Of a stretch of 42,874 nucleotides of DNA, positions 17,616-42,300 are shown in pieces. Position 1 is the first letter of the stretch, and every line of letters starts with the position of its first letter. The position numbers and the translations under genes were made by a program. The stretch spans positions 1 through 42,874 of the IMG/VR virus record IMGVR_UViG_3300003322_001574; one strand, 5' to 3'. The notes beneath the pieces are model-generated. The model was not told the DNA's origin, made no database searches, and saw only the letters and a program-made list of their open reading frames with translations. The stretch comes from a virus.

Positions 17616-19220
17616 TTAGCGCTTTTTAATTCTGTCCTTAAATATTTCACTGACCAGGTATTCCACGCAATCCGTTTCATGCCCTACCTTCTCGAATGAC
17701 GCTCCGGTATCCTTATCCTTTGGCCTGGGCTTGTGCTTACCCTGTGGCCCTATCTTGACGCTCTCGAAATCTTCTATGGTATGGGTCATATCCGTATCGA
17801 AATACATTTCAATGTCTTCATACAGCCCGGCCAATATATCATTAACCAGCTTTATACGGGAGTGCGGCCCAACATTGGGGTTTTTCACCTTCTTACTGTG
17901 CCCATGTAGATAGGCTTCCATTGCTTCCTCTACCCAGGTGAATCGGGTAGTACTGCCCAGGCCCTCAATTCTATTTAATCCCTGACTATCCCCGTAGTAC
18001 TCCACCTCTGTATCCCTTGGGTCGTGATCTTCTTTAAACAGGTTCCCGACCTGCTCCACGGATGATACGGGGGGTTCTGGGCAATACTCCTTATACCATA
18101 GCACCTGGGTTACGAATACCGGCATAAGCCCGTATGCCGGTTCGTCAAACTTGGTACCTACCGCGTTCTTATACCTGATCACCTCCCTGACCGTGCAGCA
18201 TAAACACGTCATATGTGGTAAGACGTTAAAATCCCAGGACTGTAAAACGGTATGCCCCTTAGTACGGGTAACCTTCCTTACATGCGCGTCACGGTTAAAC
18301 GCTGGGTAGCATTCGCCACCCGTCTTACTGAATGGGTAGGCATCGATAAGCATAAATGCCAGGTCTGGGTTATTCAGGTTCTTTGCCTTCTGCTGAAGAT
18401 GTCCAGGTGGCAGGTTCTTTTCGTTATGGTATGCGCTGTATATCACCACGCACTTACCGTCGAATTCCTTATGAAAGAAGTCAGCACCGCGCGCCTCACA
18501 CTTACGCTTTATCTCCTTTTGGAACTTCCCCAGGGAAAACATTTTGTTGATCCAGGGGGCCACGCCTTCAGCTGGTGACGTATGTATCTTCAGGGGGTTG
18601 AACGCCTGCAGTCCGCCTGCGATATTTTCAGCCTCGTGTTCCTTGATTTCATCCCAATACAGATTACCAGCCTTATCATACCATAGGCCGTACTGTCTGA
18701 GACGCCCCAGTATTACCTTGGTTACGGCATCCTCTACGGTATCTTTCGTTTCGTCCAGGTGTGCCCATGCGAACTGCTTACCATCATGCGCGGAATAGTT
18801 TTCCAGTGATCCAATGAAGATTAACGCGCCATTCCAGAAACTGATCGTACCCCGGTAGTCTCTTAATGTGTAGTTCCTCTTAAAATGGGGAGGCGGTCGC
18901 CGGTCCACCACGAAAGTGCCGGTAGGGTTCGATACCTTTTCGTATTGACTGAACCCGTATATAGCTTCCCAGGTGGCAAATACCTCAGATAGGGTAGACT
19001 GTGATAGCTGTGTCTGTGTATTAGCTCCTATAAACCCCTTTGCGCGCGGGAATTCCTGTATCATCATACCGGTATCATAACCGATATTTCGCGACTTTCC
19101 GCCACCCTGCCCCGCCATATCGAGCGTAATACTTGCGATACTGGATAAAACAACCATTTGGGGGTCGCTTAGTTCCACTTCTAACACTACGTTTTGTTCG
19201 TTCATGCTGATTTCCGACAT
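17616..19220 (-). CDS. terL: Terminase large subunit
   Basis: 534 residues; a second in-frame ATG is at codon 6. The ATPase domain has a Walker A variant GQGGGKS at residues 37-43 and a Walker B with D156-E157 (FAWAHLDE). The C-terminal nuclease domain shows the expected acidic residues in LQSWDFNV, EVEYYGDSQG and HETDCVEYL. It packages DNA through the portal and cuts concatemers. Codons 1-6 coincide with one copy of a 15-base motif that recurs in the replication gene. It follows the small subunit by 39 bases. Confidence 0.93.
   Translation of the reverse strand: MSEISMNEQNVVLEVELSDPQMVVLSSIASITLDMAGQGGGKSRNIGYDTGMMIQEFPRAKGFIGANTQTQLSQSTLSEVFATWEAIYGFSQYEKVSNPTGTFVVDRRPPPHFKRNYTLRDYRGTISFWNGALIFIGSLENYSAHDGKQFAWAHLDETKDTVEDAVTKVILGRLRQYGLWYDKAGNLYWDEIKEHEAENIAGGLQAFNPLKIHTSPAEGVAPWINKMFSLGKFQKEIKRKCEARGADFFHKEFDGKCVVIYSAYHNEKNLPPGHLQQKAKNLNNPDLAFMLIDAYPFSKTGGECYPAFNRDAHVRKVTRTKGHTVLQSWDFNVLPHMTCLCCTVREVIRYKNAVGTKFDEPAYGLMPVFVTQVLWYKEYCPEPPVSSVEQVGNLFKEDHDPRDTEVEYYGDSQGLNRIEGLGSTTRFTWVEEAMEAYLHGHSKKVKNPNVGPHSRIKLVNDILAGLYEDIEMYFDTDMTHTIEDFESVKIGPQGKHKPRPKDKDTGASFEKVGHETDCVEYLVSEIFKDRIKKR
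19205..19219 (-). repeat. Iteron-like motif copy at terL start
   Basis: Plus-strand TGCTGATTTCCGACA, identical to 19241-19255 and, inverted, to 36263-36277. It covers terL codons 1-5, so it would fall in the leader if translation starts at codon 6. Confidence 0.6.
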
Positions 19221-19235
19221 TTTTTATTAAAACAC

Positions 19236-19260
19236 AAAAGTGCTGATTTCCGACACTTTT
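19236..19260 (-). repeat. 25-bp inverted-repeat element between terS and terL
   Basis: AAAAGTG and CACTTTT arms flank the 11-base core CTGATTTCCGA. The whole element matches 23 of 25 bases of 36300-36324 inside the replication gene. It lies in the 39-base gap between the terminase genes and is a plausible protein-binding site. Confidence 0.6.
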
Positions 19261-19886
19261 TAATTTTCCTCGTCTGTACTCAAAAGCTCCTGGGACGTGC
19301 GTATGGTCCTTCCGTTGAAAATTACGGTTCTGTTTGAATTCGACACATTTGCAGCAACGGCAGTGTTTGTATTTGTGTTGTTTATCTGCACTAATGCGGC
19401 AACTTCAGGGCCTAATATCTTACATCGTTGCTCAATGCACCATTGTACACCCTGAAGGAAACGGACATCTCCCTGGCTCTGTCGTTCCTGATCCTGCTTT
19501 TCTGCCAGGGCCATACCGCCCGCGCTCGTTTTGGTCTGTTTCTTAGTGGTGGACTTGACCACCTTGCAGGAATTAAACCAGGCATCCCAATAAGTAGTTT
19601 CTAACAGGTTGATCTTTTCCAGCTGCTCTGCCTTCCAGGTGGTTATTATCTCCTCCTTACTGTGCTGCCATTCCAGTATACACTCCTTAATGTACTTGTT
19701 GATCGTACCAATGGCAAACTTATGGCCGCCTGTTTCCTCTGTCATTAGTTGGCGGACCGTTTCCTGGCTGTGGCCCTGTAGGTATAGGCGGACCGCTTTA
19801 CCTTTCCAGTCTTCCCGCCTCATGAGCGACGGGGACATAGGTTTTTTCATGGGCATTGTAATGGTCCCTTTTACTTTTCCTTTCAT
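19260..19886 (-). CDS. terS: Terminase small subunit (putative)
   Basis: 208 residues. Residues ~20-70 form a helix-turn-helix region (WKGKAVRLYLQGHSQETVRQLM, then AIGTINKYIKECILEW), followed by a long helical part (~80-130) and a C-terminal segment with Asn/Thr repeats and a short basic strand (NRTVIFNGRTIR). This matches small terminases, which recognise the packaging site. Placement directly before the large subunit supports the call. A later start at codon 11 or 13 is also possible. Confidence 0.8.
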   Translation of the reverse strand: MKGKVKGTITMPMKKPMSPSLMRREDWKGKAVRLYLQGHSQETVRQLMTEETGGHKFAIGTINKYIKECILEWQHSKEEIITTWKAEQLEKINLLETTYWDAWFNSCKVVKSTTKKQTKTSAGGMALAEKQDQERQSQGDVRFLQGVQWCIEQRCKILGPEVAALVQINNTNTNTAVAANVSNSNRTVIFNGRTIRTSQELLSTDEEN

Positions 19887-20311: not shown

Positions 20312-20494
20312 TTATCCCTTAATGTGGTCATCTGGTGATAATATCCGCTGTTCGTTGATATAGTCTATATCGCGTTCGTACTTCGGTAATTCCGATCCGC
20401 ATACCCACCATATCCCCCGTGTGGCGTTCCATTCTGCCACCTGCCACGTAGACGAAAGGTATTGAATCCAATAAAATCCGCTTTCTCTTCTCAT
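20312..20494 (-). CDS. Small conserved phage protein
   Basis: 60 residues starting MRRESGFYWIQYLSSTWQVA. The pattern GFYW...W.VAEW......WWVCGSE....D.DYINE.RI matches a small hypothetical family that recurs in Bacteroidota phages. Its start has AGGAGG exactly nine bases before the ATG, inside the shared junction sequence. No function is known. Confidence 0.65.
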   Translation of the reverse strand: MRRESGFYWIQYLSSTWQVAEWNATRGIWWVCGSELPKYERDIDYINEQRILSPDDHIKG

Positions 20495-20519
20495 ATAGTC
20501 CGGCCTCCTAACCGGTTTT

Positions 20520-20816
20520 TTACCTGTATTCTTCGTCGAATTCGTTGTTTAGTTTGTCATTGCAGTAGTCACAGGTCTTCAATTCACCGTACTTGCTTGT
20601 TGCAATCCGCCTTTTGCACTCTTCGCATAGCTGATCCGGTTGGGCATGTGACAATTTTTCTATTTCTGCCATTATCTTATCGTAAGCCTGTCCGACCGCA
20701 TTTAAAAAAAGCTCCTTGTTGCCCGCATATATATGGCATGTATGATCTTCCCTGACCTTTATTTCTACCTTCAGGTTATGGTCGTACGCGTCTATCCTTA
20801 CTATGAAATTTGGCAT
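20520..20816 (-). CDS. Small protein with C-terminal zinc ribbon
   Basis: 98 residues from the ATG at 20816 (MPNFIVRIDAYDHNLK). A longer frame to 20852 exists, but the junction SD (AGGAGG, nine bases) fixes this start. The N-terminal half is beta/alpha. The C-terminal half has LCEECKRR and TCDYCNDK, two CxxC pairs fit to bind zinc. It belongs to the run of tiny zinc-ribbon genes; no function is known. Confidence 0.7.
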   Translation of the reverse strand: MPNFIVRIDAYDHNLKVEIKVREDHTCHIYAGNKELFLNAVGQAYDKIMAEIEKLSHAQPDQLCEECKRRIATSKYGELKTCDYCNDKLNNEFDEEYR

Positions 20817-20817
20817 G

Positions 20818-21024
20818 TTATCCGGCCTCCTTAACCGGTTCTTTTGGTTCACATTTTGGTAGGTCCGTCTGATATGACGTATTACCTATTACTGTTTTAA
20901 AAAAATAGACCTTTACAAACTTAGACCCGAACTGTGACGGCATAAGGGTATATGTTTGATTGCAGCCACAGCGTATACATTCCTTATTCAGCCGGTCCCG
21001 ATTGCTCCAGCGGTGTCTGCCCAT
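20818..21024 (-). CDS. Zinc-ribbon small protein, paralogue A
   Basis: 68 residues starting MGRHRWSNRDRLNKECIRCG. CIRCGC and a C-terminal LPKC provide zinc ligands. The pattern HxWxNxD...CxxC...YxxK...PxC...KEAG is shared with the overlapping upstream gene, so the two are tandem paralogues. The SD AGGAGG lies nine bases before ATG. The family recurs in Bacteroidota phages without a known role. Confidence 0.7.
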   Translation of the reverse strand: MGRHRWSNRDRLNKECIRCGCNQTYTLMPSQFGSKFVKVYFFKTVIGNTSYQTDLPKCEPKEPVKEAG

Positions 21025-21235
21025 TTCCCCCGGCCTCCTTATCCGGTTTTTTTATCTTACGAGTTATACATCTGGGACGCCCAGGTAGCTTTACGCCGTT
21101 TTTATAGTAAATGTATGCCCGGCCACTCCCATATGGTTCAGTTTCATAGCGCTTAACCTCGCAATGTGGACAGTGAGATACTACACCGTCATTCCCTACC
21201 CACTCGTGTTTATTTACGCTCTTAATCCCCACCAT
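20984..21235 (-). CDS. Zinc-ribbon small protein, paralogue B
   Basis: 83 residues starting MVGIKSVNKHEWVGNDGVVS. SHCPHCEVK and PRCITRK give three cysteines in the same spacing as paralogue A, and the C-terminal KKPDKEAG matches KEPVKEAG. The last ~13 residues run 41 bases into paralogue A, past that gene's SD. AGGAGG is nine bases before ATG. Confidence 0.65.
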   Translation of the reverse strand: MVGIKSVNKHEWVGNDGVVSHCPHCEVKRYETEPYGSGRAYIYYKNGVKLPGRPRCITRKIKKPDKEAGGNGQTPLEQSGPAE

Positions 21236-21503: not shown

Positions 21504-21715
21504 TCCTCCGGCCCTCCTTCGTCGTGGTGTGTTATTTCTATGCCATCAGGCTTAATAAGGTATATTGCCCCAAATACCAGCAAAGTAGCAGGCCACAACA
21601 ATGCAATAATAACACGCATCCAGTTAACAGCATGTCCTGCCTTATTAACTGAGCTATTTTTGTACAGGTAGTGGCTTACCCCAAGATAAGCCAGTAATAT
21701 TATGATCGTTATCAT
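21500..21715 (-). CDS. Two-helix membrane peptide
   Basis: 71 residues starting MITIIILLAYLGVSHYLYKN. Two membrane helices (1-18 and ~33-54, WMRVIIALLWPATLLVFGAI) and an acidic tail HHDEGGPEE encoded by the junction sequence. The stop overlaps the next ATG (ATGA). The GGGAGG SD lies nine bases before ATG. Role unknown; a holin or small envelope-active protein is possible. Confidence 0.6.
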   Translation of the reverse strand: MITIIILLAYLGVSHYLYKNSSVNKAGHAVNWMRVIIALLWPATLLVFGAIYLIKPDGIEITHHDEGGPEE

Positions 21716-21823
21716 ACTTTCCGGCCTCCCCGCCGGTGTTTAATGTTAATAAATGTACTGTATGCAGCAAGTCCCCATAAGAACCCGCTTACCCATGCGA
21801 ATACATTCGTTGAATGTGGGCAT
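21712..21823 (-). pseudogene. Possible broken membrane-peptide ORF
   Basis: The frame ending TGA at 21712-21714 encodes VFAWVSGFLWGLAAYSTFI, a convincing membrane helix, then HRRGGRKV. It has no ATG, GTG or TTG downstream of its upstream stop. The ATG at 21823 (MPTFNE) is in another frame, and removing one base near 21808 would join them. Either a frameshifted gene, a sequencing error or a shadow. Confidence 0.3.
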
Positions 21824-21835
21824 CTTTAACCGGTT

Positions 21836-22102
21836 TTACCATGAAATAATATAATAGTCGCATTCGCGTGGGTCCTTGCTTGGTGGCACATGTACCCTCC
21901 TTAACCGGTATTTATCTACTTCCTTTAGATGGTGTATTGCTGTATCAGAAAGATAAAATACGATGGCTGCCTCCATTTTTTTTGGGTTGCTTTCAATCGC
22001 CCGGTTTATCGCCTCGTAAACCTTATCCAGTGTTTTTTTATCTGATTCGGTCAGTACCGGCTGCTGGTGCATTGCTTTTTCCCTTGCTTGTTTTGCGTTC
22101 AT
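21836..22102 (-). CDS. Small helical hypothetical protein
   Basis: 88 residues from the ATG at 22102 (MNAKQAREKAMHQQ), chosen because GGGAGG lies nine bases upstream in the shared junction; the frame extends to 22183. Helical N-terminal half (ESDKKTLDKVYEAINRAIES), then a beta/charged C-terminus ending CDYYIISW. An internal junction-like sequence (ACCGGTTAAGGAGG) occurs at 21896-21909. No family recognised. Confidence 0.6.
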   Translation of the reverse strand: MNAKQAREKAMHQQPVLTESDKKTLDKVYEAINRAIESNPKKMEAAIVFYLSDTAIHHLKEVDKYRLRRVHVPPSKDPRECDYYIISW

Positions 22103-22283
22103 TTTGTGCGGCCTCCCTGCCGGTCTTTTCGTATTCCGCTTCCCAGTATTCCAAAGCGGTAACAGTCTGTTTGAGTTTTGCAATGTTGTACCCGTTGCGT
22201 TTCTTCCGTAGCTTCTCTTCCCTTGACTTTAGTAAGGATCTTAACCTGGCTATTATTTCCGGGTAATTTGGTTCATCCTGCAT
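22038..22283 (-). CDS. Small coiled-coil protein
   Basis: About 81 residues from the ATG at 22283 (MQDEPNYPEIIARLRSLLKS); a TTG at 22292 would add three. Lys/Arg/Glu-rich helices suggest a coiled coil. It runs 65 bases past the next gene's start, so its C-terminus (REAAQNERKT...) is encoded over the junction sequence. No SD at its own start. No family recognised. Confidence 0.5.
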   Translation of the reverse strand: MQDEPNYPEIIARLRSLLKSREEKLRKKRNGYNIAKLKQTVTALEYWEAEYEKTGREAAQNERKTSKGKSNAPAAGTDRIR

Positions 22284-28039: not shown

Positions 28040-28720
28040 TTATTTAAAAAGCGTGCTCTGTTTGTATCCTCCTACCCTGTTAACTGCTGTTTCAATATTG
28101 TTTTCATCCAGTTCAAACCCGTAAAAATTCCGTCCTAACTTCTGACAGGCTACGGCTGTAGTGCCGCTACCCATAAACGGGTCCAGGACGGTATGACCCT
28201 CTGAGGTGCTTTCCCTTAAAATCCTTTCTATGATCTCCAGTGTTTTCTGCGTTTCGTGCACCTTTTCGCCGTTTGTCTTTTTAGCCCCGGCAGCGAATCC
28301 GGGAGAACGCCAGATATTTGGCCCCTTCTTTTTGGCATCGTTTTCTACACAGTGGAACAAAATAAGTTCGTGGTTAAATCCATAAAAGTTGCCTGGTCCA
28401 CTCATTTTGTCCCATACTATGAGGTTGCGCGCTCCCAGGATAGCGTCGAAAATAGGGTAATAGAACGCATACCCACGCCAGTCTGTGAAAAAATATACCT
28501 CCCCGTCTGGCCGCAATACCCTTTTAAACTGCTTGAATAGCTCTTTAAAAAACGGCTTGCAGATTGCCAGGTCTACAAAGTTTCCACGCTGCCCATTATG
28601 GGTCATGCCCATAAAATACGGAGGATCGGCAATTATAGACTTTATAGACTGGGATGGTATTAACTCCATTCCGTCCAGGCAGTCCATGTGGTGCACCTTG
28701 TTAAGCTCTAATTGCTCCAT
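28040..28720 (-). CDS. DNA methyltransferase (N6-adenine or N4-cytosine, beta class)
   Basis: 226 residues. Motif IV DPPY is at residues 32-35 and motif I DPFMGSGTT at 180-188, the IV-to-I order of beta-class enzymes; the target-recognition region lies between. No restriction enzyme is nearby, so it is probably an orphan enzyme that protects phage DNA or marks regulatory sites. The specificity cannot be read. An SD-like GGGAGG lies nine bases before ATG, the same spacing as in the small-gene array. Confidence 0.9.
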   Translation of the reverse strand: MEQLELNKVHHMDCLDGMELIPSQSIKSIIADPPYFMGMTHNGQRGNFVDLAICKPFFKELFKQFKRVLRPDGEVYFFTDWRGYAFYYPIFDAILGARNLIVWDKMSGPGNFYGFNHELILFHCVENDAKKKGPNIWRSPGFAAGAKKTNGEKVHETQKTLEIIERILRESTSEGHTVLDPFMGSGTTAVACQKLGRNFYGFELDENNIETAVNRVGGYKQSTLFK

Positions 28721-28989
28721 TATAAAATACCTCCCTGTTTTTTAATGGCCTCATGTGCCTTTTTAATGTCCTGGTTGAATTTCCACATTATGATCGGCTT
28801 AATGATCCGTAAGCGAAGAGGCGCGGAAATGTTTAATAAGCCGTCCAGCGCCTTAATGATATATAGTATTCCTTCAATAATCAGCGGCAGGAACACCTCA
28901 AACCAGGACAGGTCCGGACCGGTGCCGGTTAACTTATAATGTATCCCCATCAAGGTAAGCGCTGTACAAATTAGCTCGGTTCTTTTCAT
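28720..28989 (-). CDS. Small membrane-associated helical protein
   Basis: 89 residues starting MKRTELICTALTLMGIHYKL. Two hydrophobic stretches (~35-50 WFEVFLPLIIEGILYIIKAL and ~61-70) suggest membrane association; the C-terminus is a charged helix (DIKKAHEAIKKQG). It is the first gene after a strong promoter and shares one base with the methyltransferase start. Function unknown. Confidence 0.6.
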   Translation of the reverse strand: MKRTELICTALTLMGIHYKLTGTGPDLSWFEVFLPLIIEGILYIIKALDGLLNISAPLRLRIIKPIIMWKFNQDIKKAHEAIKKQGGIL

Positions 28990-29020
28990 ATTCTTTTCTG
29001 TTTTGTTTTATTTTCTTTTC

Positions 29021-34681: not shown

Positions 34682-35131
34682 TTACAGGTTCACTTCCACT
34701 ATATCAATATTATGCAGCGCCTTCATTAACTTCTTTTTCAAGATATATACAGGTAATTGCCTGGTTATATTACTTTTCACGTCTATTACTTCCCGTTCAC
34801 CCGTCCAGTGTACCAGTATAAAATCGGCTTCGTAAGTACAGATTAGCATATCATTTACAACCAGCTTAAAACGTAGGTCCCGTTTTTTATACAGGATATG
34901 TTTAAATTCCTTTGCTAATAGCCTGATCTTTAGCCGATCGTAATAATTTGCCTCCTTCTCACTATCGAATGTTTCCCCGTCTCGGATCGTATTGTATACC
35001 CTTCCCTTTTCCGTCACACCCTGTCCGCGTAGGTTTCCGTATTTGTTCTTCTTCTTTACGGCCGCTTGTTGCTGTTTTTTTTTAATCAAGTGTTGCCGGT
35101 ACTGATCCACATTCCAATTATTTGTTTCCAT
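34682..35131 (-). CDS. DUF1064-family protein (putative resolvase/nuclease)
   Basis: 149 residues. NKYGNLRGQGVTEKGRVYNT, then GETFDSEKEANYYDRLKI, YEADFILVHWTGEREVIDVK and ILKKKLMKAL reproduce the DUF1064 pattern (FDSxxEAxxYxxL, Y.ADF, VxDVK, KKKL). This family has a restriction-endonuclease-like core and is usually called a phage Holliday-junction resolvase or ssDNA nuclease. It overlaps the upstream gene by 14 bases. Confidence 0.82.
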   Translation of the reverse strand: METNNWNVDQYRQHLIKKKQQQAAVKKKNKYGNLRGQGVTEKGRVYNTIRDGETFDSEKEANYYDRLKIRLLAKEFKHILYKKRDLRFKLVVNDMLICTYEADFILVHWTGEREVIDVKSNITRQLPVYILKKKLMKALHNIDIVEVNL

Positions 35132-35741
35132 TCAGCTGGTCTTTAAAAGTATGTAAGTGATCAGACATAGCGCCCAGGCGCGCGTCCATTTCCCTTTGTT
35201 CTTCCCGCTCTTCTGTCGGTACCTCGTAGTGGTATGCCCTGGCGCGCCTGGTTTCTACTACCTCCATCCTGTGGTCTATGTATTCCGCCCAGCATGCCCA
35301 AATAGTTGGCGCGTCTAGTCTCTCATATATCCGGCCATATTTTCCCCGCTTTACGCAGTGGAAAAATGCCAGTAGTTCCTCCAAACGTACCCACCATAGT
35401 TCGCCAGTCATTTCCGCCGCCAGGTCGCCAATTTGTTCGGGCGTCATTGGCCTGGACACATTGAATGTATTCACCAGGTCGGACAGGAAAATAACAATTA
35501 TAGCCGCCACGAACTCCGGCCCCTGGTGCGCCCTTAATACGGCTATCGGCGTTCCTTCATCCAGTACTTTATCCACATTAACCATCCCGCCAGACGTAAA
35601 GCGTGGTAAGTTCTGCTTAATTACCTGTACCCCTGTTTCCCCCTTGTCCAAAGCGGCCATTAACCACAGACATGGCGGCTTTAAGTCCTCCAGCGTCGAT
35701 TTTTTTACCCCCGTTTCCTTGTTGTTTTTTTGCAATTCCAT
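35118..35741 (-). CDS. Replication-associated protein (DUF6633-like)
   Basis: 207 residues starting MELQKNNKETGVKKSTLEDL. The middle (MTPEQIGDLAAEMTGELWWV, VKRGKYGRIYERLDAPTIWA) resembles the DUF6633 proteins that follow replication initiators in Bacteroidota phages; a helicase-loader role is only a guess. It overlaps the upstream replication gene by 125 bases. A shorter start at 35660 would reduce that, but the N-terminus looks conserved. Confidence 0.6.
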   Translation of the reverse strand: MELQKNNKETGVKKSTLEDLKPPCLWLMAALDKGETGVQVIKQNLPRFTSGGMVNVDKVLDEGTPIAVLRAHQGPEFVAAIIVIFLSDLVNTFNVSRPMTPEQIGDLAAEMTGELWWVRLEELLAFFHCVKRGKYGRIYERLDAPTIWACWAEYIDHRMEVVETRRARAYHYEVPTEEREEQREMDARLGAMSDHLHTFKDQLNGNK

Positions 35742-36651
35742 CCTTTAACTGTTTTAAAATGTTCTGAATGTTTGAATTAAAATCGATAAGGCGGAGCCGA
35801 TCCTGGTAGAATCCATCTACCTTACCGTAATTGTCTAACACATATTTCCACGCCTGCATTATCCTTTCATCTTCCCCGGCCTCGTCCAGGACCTTTTTTT
35901 CTTCCCTGGCTTTATCCCGTATTACTGTGCGCAAATAGGCGGCCAGTGCTTTGGCGGCATTTCCCTGTGCTCCGTCTATTTTTGGCGGCACTCCTTCCCT
36001 TTCCTTATGCCATGTGTAATACATGTCAATAACTTGTTGAAATATGGCCTTTTTAGGCGCGGCGGCTGCCCCATTTTCCGCGCCGGGTGCATCTGTATCA
36101 ATTTCGGTCTGTACTGCCTTAATTCGCTCCTTTTTGTCCTTTTTCGGTTTCCCCTGAACTTTCGCCGCATCTACGGTAGTAGATGCAATATTTGTAACTA
36201 CAGTATTTGTATTACTTATAGTATTTGTTAGGTGCTGATTTCCCGAATTACGGGTTTCCGACTGTCGGAAATCAGCATTTCGGCGCTTCTTATTTTTTGA
36301 AAAGTGTTGATTTTCGACACTTTTACCCGACTGCTGATTTTCAGCATTTCGCGGACTGCATGGCGTTTCATATACCTGGTAATCCCAGACAGGACGCTTT
36401 TTTTCATCACAGTATATTTTTTCTGAAACAATGTAACCGGCTTCCTGCAATTCCTTCCACGCACTGTCGAATGACGCGCGCCCGTCCTTTAAGTCCTTTA
36501 TAAGGTTCTTTTTGTAAATGATCCAATCAGCGGGATAATGTAGGATGTAAGTAAGTAGCCCGATTGCTTTAAGTGACAGCCCAGAACGGAAAATAGAGTT
36601 ATCTACCTGGGTAAAGTCTGAATTCTTGCGTATGCGCTTTATTCTATCCAT
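35617..36651 (-). CDS. Replication initiation protein with embedded origin repeats
   Basis: 344 residues from the ATG at 36651 (MDRIKRIRKNSDFTQVDNSI); the longer frame to 36702 runs into a hairpin. The first ~95 residues are a winged-helix replisome-organiser type (SLKAIGLLTYILHYPADWII, FDSAWKELQEAGYI). An Asn/Gln/Ser linker (~100-155) is encoded by the inverted and direct repeats at 36232-36346. A C-terminal helical domain (YYTWHKEREGVPPK...) resembles DnaD/DnaB-loader regions. This is the lambda-O plan with the origin in the gene. Confidence 0.75.
   Translation of the reverse strand: MDRIKRIRKNSDFTQVDNSIFRSGLSLKAIGLLTYILHYPADWIIYKKNLIKDLKDGRASFDSAWKELQEAGYIVSEKIYCDEKKRPVWDYQVYETPCSPRNAENQQSGKSVENQHFSKNKKRRNADFRQSETRNSGNQHLTNTISNTNTVVTNIASTTVDAAKVQGKPKKDKKERIKAVQTEIDTDAPGAENGAAAAPKKAIFQQVIDMYYTWHKEREGVPPKIDGAQGNAAKALAAYLRTVIRDKAREEKKVLDEAGEDERIMQAWKYVLDNYGKVDGFYQDRLRLIDFNSNIQNILKQLKDGIAKKQQGNGGKKIDAGGLKAAMSVVNGRFGQGGNRGTGN
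36232..36346. repeat. Iteron-like repeats, candidate replication origin
   Basis: Related copies of TGCTGATTTCCGACA: 36233-36246, 36263-36277 (inverted, exact), 36305-36319 (two mismatches, inside the arms AAAAGTG/CACTTTT of 36300-36324) and 36332-36346 (palindrome TGCTGATTTTCAGCA). There is also a 17-bp palindrome TTTCCGACTGTCGGAAA at 36255-36271. The clustering within the initiator gene fits an origin. Confidence 0.65.
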
Positions 36652-36789: not shown

Positions 36790-37806
36790 TTATTTCGTTT
36801 TATTGAGAAAAACACGCGTCCCGTTTTTGTCAGGTTTCCAACTTACGTAGCCGTTAGGGCCAAAATTAAGTTTCGTTACGTCGCTACGCATTTCGTTTTT
36901 AATGAGCTGTTCGTATAGTTTGGCGTTCTGCTCTATCTCCTTTATGGCGTTCTTTTCACCCATATGCAGACGCGCCCAGGATAACTCGTCTAAAGTACCG
37001 GCACGCTCCCCTGGTTCCGCTATGTTGTACTTTTTCTTCAGGAATGCGCTGTACGCATCTGATCCGTCCGGTGGTGGTTCAATGGCCTGTAATTCCGCTG
37101 TAAGTTCTTCAGCTACCCGCATGTTATAATCTACATGCTTTGCGTGGTAAAGTTTGGTAGCTATCCCGCGCGCCTTTTCTACCTTATCCCAAAACTCTTT
37201 AGTAACTGTGAGGATCTTATCCTGCAGCTCGTTGTGTACCTCAAACGGTAGACATTCCAAATGCCTGCCGTTCTTCATGGTAAACAGTTCGCCCCATAGG
37301 AACTCGCACACCAAAATTTGTGTTTGTACCTGGACCGCGTATGATGGCGGTATCTCATTTTCCCACTTTTCAGCCTCCCAGGCCTCGATCGTTTTAAGTT
37401 CCAGTGCGCCCTCTCCCCTCCCCTCAATGTGGTTGATCTTCCTATCCAGTGAGACAAACAGCCACGGGAAACGGGGATTATTAACATATGCGTTTACACG
37501 CTGGCAACGCCTGATAATATTATTGCTCCGCCAGTTTCTGATCACGCTTTCCGGGTCACCGTCCCAGAATTGCCACAGCTTTGCCATAAATGGTTCCTGC
37601 TCCTTACCCATGAACATGGCTATATTTTCAACCGTATAGCCCAGTTCCTCCCCTATCTTTTCGTAAAACAATTCTATACTTGATTTGTACGGGTTTAATC
37701 CCATTACCGTGCCCACCTCGGATGCTCCTACCCCTCTTTTCCTGTATCTCAGCCAGTCTTCATGGCTCATGTTGTTAGTAGATGTTAGTAATAAGTGCTG
37801 TTTCAT
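36790..37806 (-). CDS. YqaJ-type viral recombinase (5'-3' exonuclease)
   Basis: 338 residues. RKRGVGASEVGTVMGLNPYK at ~23-42 is the YqaJ start motif. LELKTIEAWEAEKW (E-x-K) and YAVQVQTQILVC complete the nuclease core. It resects double-stranded ends so the neighbouring RecT can anneal them. An internal ATG at codon 13 could be the true start. A promoter-like box lies upstream and a terminator overlaps the RecT stop, so it may form a separate transcript. Confidence 0.85.
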   Translation of the reverse strand: MKQHLLLTSTNNMSHEDWLRYRKRGVGASEVGTVMGLNPYKSSIELFYEKIGEELGYTVENIAMFMGKEQEPFMAKLWQFWDGDPESVIRNWRSNNIIRRCQRVNAYVNNPRFPWLFVSLDRKINHIEGRGEGALELKTIEAWEAEKWENEIPPSYAVQVQTQILVCEFLWGELFTMKNGRHLECLPFEVHNELQDKILTVTKEFWDKVEKARGIATKLYHAKHVDYNMRVAEELTAELQAIEPPPDGSDAYSAFLKKKYNIAEPGERAGTLDELSWARLHMGEKNAIKEIEQNAKLYEQLIKNEMRSDVTKLNFGPNGYVSWKPDKNGTRVFLNKTK

Positions 37807-37864: not shown

Positions 37865-37900
37865 GAAGGCCCCCTAATTGCTCAATTATTGGGGGCCTTC
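37865..37900 (-). terminator. Hairpin overlapping the recT stop codon
   Basis: GAAGGCCCCC and GGGGGCCTTC form a 10-bp stem, extended by AAT/ATT pairs. The recT stop (37882-37884) lies inside the hairpin. Only TTCTTAG follows, so termination may be partial. Confidence 0.65.
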
Positions 37901-38889
37901 TTTCGTTTAGCTGCGTTCTTTTTCTCGGCATCTTCGCGTTTTTGGAGTAGGGACATTGTGCCCGCTGCAACCTTGTCCGCTTTATCCTTACTCTTTTGGT
38001 TACGTTGAATTTTGCGGGTCTGTTGTTCTTCCTCCTTTTCCGCTGCTGCCTCAGAAATGACGTTTTGCGCTATGTCGTTAGCGAATTCCGGCATAACGTC
38101 TATGAACGAAGACGCTGCATTTTGGCCGCCGTAATCCGCCGCCTCGTCTGTTGATATGGCATTCATCATGTCCGGAGAAATTGGGGTGTTCTTAAACAGC
38201 TTACGGATGGCCGTTTTCATTCCCATTTCATCAAACTTTTTTGTCCAGATAGTATGGGACTTGCTACCGGTTGCTTTCCCTATTAGGGTTTCGTCCCTCA
38301 CTTTTTCCACTGCTTTACGGGTCAGAACCTTAAAGTTTTTTCGCCCGTCTGGCAAATACACGATGGCATAAAAATGGGTTATTCTGTTTATGTCATCCAG
38401 GCCCACCGGTTTGTGTTCCAATTTCTTATTCAATCCCAGGTCATAATCGAAGTAATCCCCGTCGTTTTCATTAGCCGCGTACACTACTTCAGTTTCTACG
38501 TCCGCAATCTGACCGGAACGTTTTGCCAGTGTTATAAGGCCCTTATAACCTATGATGTATGTACATTCCTTAACCTTTGACCGGTTATATTCAAAGCTCA
38601 GATAGGCCTGCCCTGTTACGTCGTCAGGGATCAAACCATATTGCGCCAACTTAAACGCACACCCCAACAGACTGTATTTAGTACACTCCATCAGGTCCGG
38701 ATTTTTTAGAACATACATCAGGAATGAAGAAATAAAGGCATCCGGACGGATGTACTGAGGCAGCAATTTTGATATTTGCACGCGGTAGCTATTCAACAGG
38801 TTTGTTATTTCCTCCTTACCCTTATTAAACTTGCTGATCCTTTCGTTTTGCTCGTTTTGGGATGCCACGATCTTTTTTTCTGTACTCAT
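37882..38889 (-). CDS. recT: RecT single-strand annealing protein
   Basis: 335 residues. The RecT family layout is clear: KFNKGKEEITNLLNSYRVQI, RPDAFISSFLMYVLKNPDLM, GCAFKLAQYGLIPDDVTGQA, then YIIGYKGLITLAKRSGQI and KVLTRKAVEKVRDETL with DEMGMKTAIRKLFKN. It anneals complementary single strands and works with the YqaJ exonuclease downstream. The C-terminal ~60 residues are charged and repetitive (KKNAAKRKKAPNN). Confidence 0.92.
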   Translation of the reverse strand: MSTEKKIVASQNEQNERISKFNKGKEEITNLLNSYRVQISKLLPQYIRPDAFISSFLMYVLKNPDLMECTKYSLLGCAFKLAQYGLIPDDVTGQAYLSFEYNRSKVKECTYIIGYKGLITLAKRSGQIADVETEVVYAANENDGDYFDYDLGLNKKLEHKPVGLDDINRITHFYAIVYLPDGRKNFKVLTRKAVEKVRDETLIGKATGSKSHTIWTKKFDEMGMKTAIRKLFKNTPISPDMMNAISTDEAADYGGQNAASSFIDVMPEFANDIAQNVISEAAAEKEEEQQTRKIQRNQKSKDKADKVAAGTMSLLQKREDAEKKNAAKRKKAPNN

Positions 38890-38913: not shown

Positions 38914-39195
38914 TTAATTCGCTTCTGGTAAGTCGCTCCGCATTGATTGAAGTTGACGGGCTTGCTGTTTTTCTGCATCTAACCGCGTCATAAAGTAATT
39001 GGTAATAGCCCCTACCAGTTCCGGCTGGTTTACATGTCCATGCTTTAGCGCCTTGTTGATTACCGGCACACTATACCCCAGGGCAACGGCCATATCTTTA
39101 ACGTCGGATCTCCTGGTGCACTGTTTCCACTGTGCAAATAATTCGTCTGAAATGGTCTGTTTAGGCGGTTCGTGTTTCTGTCTGGTTTTACTCAT
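38914..39195 (-). CDS. Helix-turn-helix regulator, Cro/CI-like size
   Basis: 93 residues. DVKDMAVALGYSVPVINKAL (~35-54) is a convincing HTH, followed by KHGHVNQPELVGAITNYFM as the continuing helix. The basic start and Gln-rich C-terminus fit a small DNA-binding regulator. It lies first in the recombination unit, directly below a promoter that carries a TTTCTGAAA palindrome, so autoregulation is likely. Cro, CI-like repressor or activator cannot be separated. Confidence 0.7.
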   Translation of the reverse strand: MSKTRQKHEPPKQTISDELFAQWKQCTRRSDVKDMAVALGYSVPVINKALKHGHVNQPELVGAITNYFMTRLDAEKQQARQLQSMRSDLPEAN

Positions 39196-39204
39196 ATTGG
39201 TTTG

Positions 39205-39245
39205 TTTGATGCGAAAATAAACATTTCTGAAACAAAACAGAAACT
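39205..39245 (-). promoter_or_regulatory. Promoter with TTTCTGAAA operator for HTH/RecT unit
   Basis: On the minus strand TATTTTCG (near TAnnTTTG) follows TTTTG at 13 bases. The 9-bp palindrome TTTCTGAAA (39224-39232) overlaps the promoter and is also present twice at 42268-42298. Confidence 0.55.
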
Positions 39246-39251
39246 TTTATG

Positions 39252-39288
39252 AAAATAAAAAGGCCCGAACTTATTAAAGTACGGGCCT
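39252..39288 (-). terminator. Intrinsic terminator C of the tandem array
   Basis: AGGCCCGTACTT and AAGTTCGGGCCT form a 12-bp stem with one mismatch and a 4-base loop, followed by TTTTTATTTTC. Confidence 0.85.
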
Positions 39289-41915: not shown

Positions 41916-42233
41916 TTATAATTGATCAGCAAAATACTGATCCGATTCGCCGCCGCCTGGGATATAATCGTCTTCACTATCCTGGTACTCTTCCACCTCT
42001 TCGTGTGTCTCATACCAGATATCCACCTTACAGGGGTAGAACTCCCCCTTTACTCCCCTTACTATCATGTCCTGGGTTGTTAATACATAGCTGTGCCCTT
42101 CCAGGGTCTTAATTCTCCAACCTTCTGGGCTTTTAAATAGTGCGCCATTTGTCCAGGAAATTACCTCCTGTGTTGGGTTGCCATCAAACTGGATTGCATG
42201 TACTACGACGGGCTTTTTTCTGAATTGTTTCAT
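41916..42233 (-). CDS. Widespread small phage protein (GVKGEFYPCK type)
   Basis: 105 residues. MKQFRKKPVVVHAIQFDGNP, then KTLEGHSYVLTTQDMIVRGV and KGEFYPCKVDIWYETHE match a very common uncharacterised family found across phages of Firmicutes and Bacteroidota. The C-terminus is acidic. It is the only gene between a promoter with two operators and a strong terminator. Confidence 0.75.
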   Translation of the reverse strand: MKQFRKKPVVVHAIQFDGNPTQEVISWTNGALFKSPEGWRIKTLEGHSYVLTTQDMIVRGVKGEFYPCKVDIWYETHEEVEEYQDSEDDYIPGGGESDQYFADQL

Positions 42234-42249
42234 TTTTATTTCTGTTTTG

Positions 42250-42300
42250 TTATACCAAAGATAATACTTTCTGAAATAAAAAAGAAATCTTTCTGAAACT
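42250..42300 (-). promoter_or_regulatory. Promoter with two TTTCTGAAA operators
   Basis: TATCTTTG (42256-42263) matches TAnnTTTG exactly. TTTCTGAAA palindromes at 42268-42276 and 42290-42298 are 22 bases apart (two helical turns) and cover the spacer and upstream region. One copy of the same palindrome lies in the HTH-gene promoter. Confidence 0.6.

Follow-up and report, generated by a model that had tools for sequence, protein, structure and literature searches.

The terS-terL junction

The DNA analysed here (the window) is a viral stretch of 42,874 nucleotides, IMG/VR record IMGVR_UViG_3300003322_001574. Its terminase genes are separated by a short gap that contains two copies of a 15-bp motif, while further copies lie in the gene for a replication initiator, 17 kb away (Table 1). 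For terS, a family search by itself gives only a weak match to phrog_645.

Table 1. Genes, iterons and flanking elements of the terminase junction and of the origin region
Feature	Position	Strand	Remarks
terL, large terminase	17616..19205	-	phrog_979; relatives 33-54% identity; listed ORF start 19220, likely start codon 19205-19203
ter copy 2	19205..19219	+	15-bp iteron identical to copy 1; ends on A of likely terL start codon
Spacer between ter copies	19220..19240		21 bp, AT-rich; possible unwinding element
25-bp dyad AAAAGTG...CACTTTT	19236..19260		encloses ter copy 1; 23/25 identity with origin site 3
ter copy 1	19241..19255	+	15-bp iteron TGCTGATTTCCGACA, exact match; 22.9 bits (origin-trained matrix), 20.3 leave-one-out
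terS, small terminase	19260..19886	-	by position and homologues adjoining terL in G003, G018, G019, G021
Holliday-junction resolvase	34682..35131	-	phrog_190, DUF1064; function parallel to SPP1 gp44
Replication initiator, DnaD/lambda-O/G38P type	35617..36651	-	likely start 36651; predicted winged-helix N-terminus, disordered linker, helical C-terminus
AT-rich tract flanking origin sites	36180..36232		candidate unwinding element; up to 99th percentile of AT (40-bp windows)
Origin site 1	36233..36247	+	TGCTGATTTCCCGAA
Origin site 2	36263..36277	-	identical to both ter copies (TGCTGATTTCCGACA)
Origin site 3	36305..36319	+	TGTTGATTTTCGACA; within 25-bp dyad 36300-36324
Origin site 4	36332..36346	+	TGCTGATTTTCAGCA; near-perfect dyad
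YqaJ/RecE-like exonuclease	36790..37806	-	function parallel to SPP1 gp34.1
RecT-like annealing protein	37882..38889	-	function parallel to SPP1 gp35

The sequence-only reading had one copy of the motif covering terL codons 1-5, which is probably wrong. The first in-frame ATG (19220) lies 16 residues ahead of the conserved LSDPQ/LSEPQ motif and the second (19205-19203) lies 11 residues ahead of it, while the closest relatives (L003-L008, L033 and L034) have 10-11 residues there. Because the shorter N-terminus agrees in length with these relatives, we place the terL start at 19205, and probably not at 19220; in that case copy 2 reaches only as far as the A of the start codon, and the two copies are intergenic, non-coding DNA. 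With this start, the terS-terL gap is 55 bp long (19205-19259), of which the iteron copies occupy 30 bp, the remainder being the spacer and 4 other bases. The 40-bp windows around the spacer rank in the 91st to 98th percentile of AT content. A terminator in the gap is unlikely: the extended copy can fold into an AU-rich RNA hairpin, yet the scan gave no terminator-like site. An RNA-level operator is likewise disfavoured, as the origin copies are found in both orientations.

The initiator gene and its iterons

The initiator matches phrog_4707 (6.7e-16), phrog_186 (1e-14), phrog_428 and phrog_345, and is homologous to TP901-1 Rep (50% over 73 aa, E 6e-11), while PF13730 is matched only at E 0.23. 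Aligned with three relatives, both ends of the protein match and the linker, the part that encodes the iterons, does not. An AlphaFold model based on three sequences is poor overall; the ten-residue blocks of residues 1-100 have pLDDT of 50-84. In this low-confidence model, the pattern of residues 1-100 resembles a winged helix. Its fold matches include primosome DnaB and DnaD; the best is the DnaB/DnaD-type primosome protein 5wtn (E 4e-3), and none falls below E 0.001. Four dyads lie in the linker-coding part of the gene (cluster 36233-36346), with the AT-rich tract alongside. Two marks of DnaD/lambda-O/G38P-type organisers are found here, namely kinship to replication initiators by sequence, and iterons with an AT-rich tract within the initiator gene itself. 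The genes for the exonuclease, the RecT-like protein and the resolvase surround this origin.

Direct reading confirms that the motif occurs as two exact 15-mers between terS and terL, and that 19236-19260 (AAAAGTGCTGATTTCCGACACTTTT) and 36300-36324 (AAAAGTGTTGATTTTCGACACTTTT) are identical at 23 of 25 bases, both as the sequence-only reading had it. The whole-window search that it had called for returns a third exact copy, on the minus strand at 36263-36277 inside the initiator gene, and 11 matches in all at ≤3 mismatches; 0.84 are expected, and none of 100 shuffles reaches 11. A weight matrix was then trained on the four origin sites only and scored across the window. With this matrix both ter copies share the top score in the genome (22.9 bits). 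When the identical origin copy is left out of training they still score 20.3 bits, level with the origin sites, and the next off-origin match, at 16.7 bits, is well below them. Among 400 order-3 Markov genomes, hits at ≥20 bits occur at 0.005 per genome, with none at 22, and no close pairs (≥14 bits, within 100 bp) are found. The match of the ter pair to the origin set is not due to chance.

Weaker iteron-like matches are seen at 38963-38977 and 39054-39068 (15.6 and 17.6 bits), 91 bp apart in an ORF at 38914-39195; they are possibly a third, weaker cluster of initiator sites. Weak matches near terS (19331 and 19376) appear with a symmetrised matrix only and were left uncounted.

Relatives and other phages

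Related TerL loci were gathered from IMG/VR, and four of these genomes (G010, G018, G019 and G021) also carry a related initiator. Together with thirteen phage records and five more contigs, they bring the survey to 22 phages other than the window, all with such initiators. Most of the 22 have repeats clustered in the part that codes for the linker, each lineage having its own sequence, e.g., GAAACCTGTTTC in G021, TTTGCCCnnnnGGGCAAA in G010 and GGGTTTTCCGGAT in BF695P2. In this initiator family, as judged from the phages surveyed, iterons are generally embedded in the linker-coding part of the gene.

Among the window and the 22 phages, the window alone shows a cluster of off-origin copies as strong as those in the gene. 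In BF695P2 a single isolated near-match lies off-origin (25392), and TPELB has one off-origin match (3121), at its weakest in-gene score; in REQ2, which is GC-rich, the chosen motif has too little strength for a verdict on off-origin copies. The automatic choice of iterons is poor in G018 and G019, where it fell on low-complexity tracts, and in REQ2. For the closest relatives the sites were set by hand in what is a rough check, the G018 set being weak and one site each in G019 and G021 approximate. In the four relatives related in both TerL and initiator, the iterons differ and none lies near terL, and no repeat was found ahead of terL in the relatives' TerL loci. The sequence-only reading had looked to relatives that keep both copies; we found none, the nearest relative having ~54% TerL identity.

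Searches of IMG/VR with the 25-bp element, in the form searched, returned no match in other contigs, and the two exact 15-mers returned none. The two 11-mers returned one match, which was rejected as an unrelated 23-bp tandem repeat (TACCCCCACGAGGAAATCAGCAG, at 9130-9180 of L125, where this contig of an unrelated phage ends). As a separate observation, the DNA methyltransferase at 28040-28720 (N6_N4_Mtase) shares 76% identity with its G018 counterpart, against 30-57% for most shared proteins.

Possible roles of the distal pair

Given that linker iterons are general in this initiator type, we assign the set of sites to the initiator and not to an unrelated regulator, and it is likely that the phage's own initiator binds the ter pair as it would the origin sites. 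That initiators have distant sites is already known. Plasmid control iterons, the crr of P4 and the distal sites of Vibrio RctB are off-origin sites through which initiators regulate replication, although these initiators are unrelated to that of the window. For RctB, distal-site regulation through crtS also appears in the abstract of one paper. In a limited literature search, we found no precedent for two iterons composing a terS-terL junction.

The nearest parallel is SPP1, where oriL, inside the gene for G38P, and oriR, ~12-13 kb off in the late region, are both bound by G38P (PMC6316719, PMC3485210). G38P-bound oriR has been proposed to stall a fork and so trigger the theta-to-sigma switch together with an exonuclease, a recombinase and a resolvase (PMC6316719, PMC3485210). 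Both phages have repeats within the initiator gene itself and another cluster far from it, in the late region (here at 19205 and 19241, adjoining late genes), where binding has been shown for SPP1 and the window offers sites only. Both also have genes for an exonuclease, an annealing protein and a resolvase. They differ in that the SPP1 segment holding oriR also carries the moron genes 8-10, the two SPP1 origins being ~12-13 kb apart, whereas in the window the distal cluster is a pair of dyads that takes up the gap between terS and terL, at 17 kb from the origin, SPP1 being compared here by description.

In lambda, the iterons also lie mid-gene in the initiator gene O with an AT-rich tract alongside, and two iterons plus an AT-rich tract form the minimal unwinding unit (PMC7466680); two iterons and an AT-rich spacer are likewise present in the gap. 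However, the kinship of the window initiator to the O-like PHROG 345 is weak. We know of no distal O-site cluster in lambda. The initiators of Staphylococcus phiJB and 80alpha (ORF20) are homologous to the window initiator at the N-terminus; the homologous phiJB gene contains an annotated rep_origin, and in 80alpha, ORF20 resembles G38P and the origin probably lies within it (PMC5499656). Unlike these two, the window protein has no Phg_2220_C match, and in phiJB the survey found no distal iteron copies.

As the best explanation, we tentatively favour by analogy that the ter pair works like SPP1 oriR, an initiator-bound pair that either blocks or starts replication. The main origin would be the iteron cluster within the initiator gene (36.23-36.35 kb), and initiator on the distal pair would hinder forks derived from it, which on a circle would travel 17 kb one way or 25.8 kb the other; alternatively, the distal pair would act as a late second origin. 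Either way, it would help the passage from theta to recombination-dependent concatemer replication, which feeds packaging. In support, the ter copies appear to be non-coding and free of codon constraint, yet they are identical and near the origin consensus. Against it, the pair is kept by no relative found, and the survey contains no other clustered off-origin copies; moreover, the window has just two strong off-origin sites and no larger array, GC skew shows no turn at the pair, and the initiator model is of low confidence. The sequence-only reading suggested that a replication initiator or regulator binding both places could couple replication to packaging. Of this, shared recognition by the initiator is well supported, the pair being the iteron consensus from the initiator gene. 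A link of replication to packaging or to terminase expression is possible, with SPP1 oriR as a partial precedent.

Initiator bound in the gap might instead serve as an operator, roadblocking transcription into terL or shielding the DNA before its start, and so delaying the large terminase until replicated DNA dilutes the initiator. The position of both copies in the leader immediately ahead of the likely start codon would suit this; however, a sigma-70 scan, whose model does not extend to Bacteroidota promoters, finds no promoter-like site in the gap, terL lies within an apparent late operon, and for timing the phage could rely on a sigma factor of its own. We regard such an operator as rather unlikely. 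That the pair is a functionless relic, left when part of the origin cluster was copied into the gap, is more doubtful still. It would explain why the pair was seen in this phage alone, out of everything searched, and why its flank resembles origin site 3 while its core is that of site 2, but in a compact genome cores that are identical where flanks and spacers differ favour selection, even though a recent copy would look alike.

Identical sites in a separate cluster also recall copy control, in which the distal pair would titrate the initiator or be handcuffed to the origin by initiator bridges, ending theta initiation late. Plasmid control iterons such as P1 incA are a precedent. Handcuffing is described in a passage of PMC4857107. 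Yet two sites titrate little and a lytic phase needs no tight copy control, and this role seems improbable. The least supported reading, which we consider very improbable, is that of a packaging element (pac or cos) recognised by the small terminase, its motif common with the origin by chance or through coupling. The sequence-only reading had raised it, and the pair does adjoin terS and terL, but copies lie at the origin within the initiator gene, the motif is missing from relatives whose TerS is homologous, and SPP1 pac overlaps the start of terS and not the terS-terL junction. The ends of the record are uninformative on packaging, since it is linear and without end repeats.

The theta-to-concatemer switch and its timing against packaging are unsettled even in lambda and SPP1 (PMC5499656). 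It is conceivable, if doubtful, that the replisome organiser gates packaging directly, occupying the terS-terL junction and thereby stalling forks near the packaging region and holding back terL; large terminase and concatemers would then appear together once replicated DNA dilutes the initiator. With the only strong clustered off-origin sites confined to a 55-bp gap, both the fork-block and the terminase-gating ideas would be testable by one small mutation.

Several further features were noted. The sigma-70-family factor encoded by the phage (27343-27852; Sigma70_r2 and r4) adjoins the 40-bp stretch with the highest AT content in the window (27312). A leader of the form ACCGG-NN-AGGAGG-CCGG, that is, a Shine-Dalgarno sequence flanked by CCGG half-stems, is repeated before small minus-strand genes at 20492-20521, 20814-20843, 21022-21051, 21713-21742 and 22100-22129; the strict pattern is counted four times in the window, three times in G021, once in G019 and not at all in the other scanned genomes. 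Finally, a common leader-like repeat, AAACAAAACAGAAA, is found near gene starts at 28980-29010, 39230-39258 and 42228-42254, one copy being inverted.
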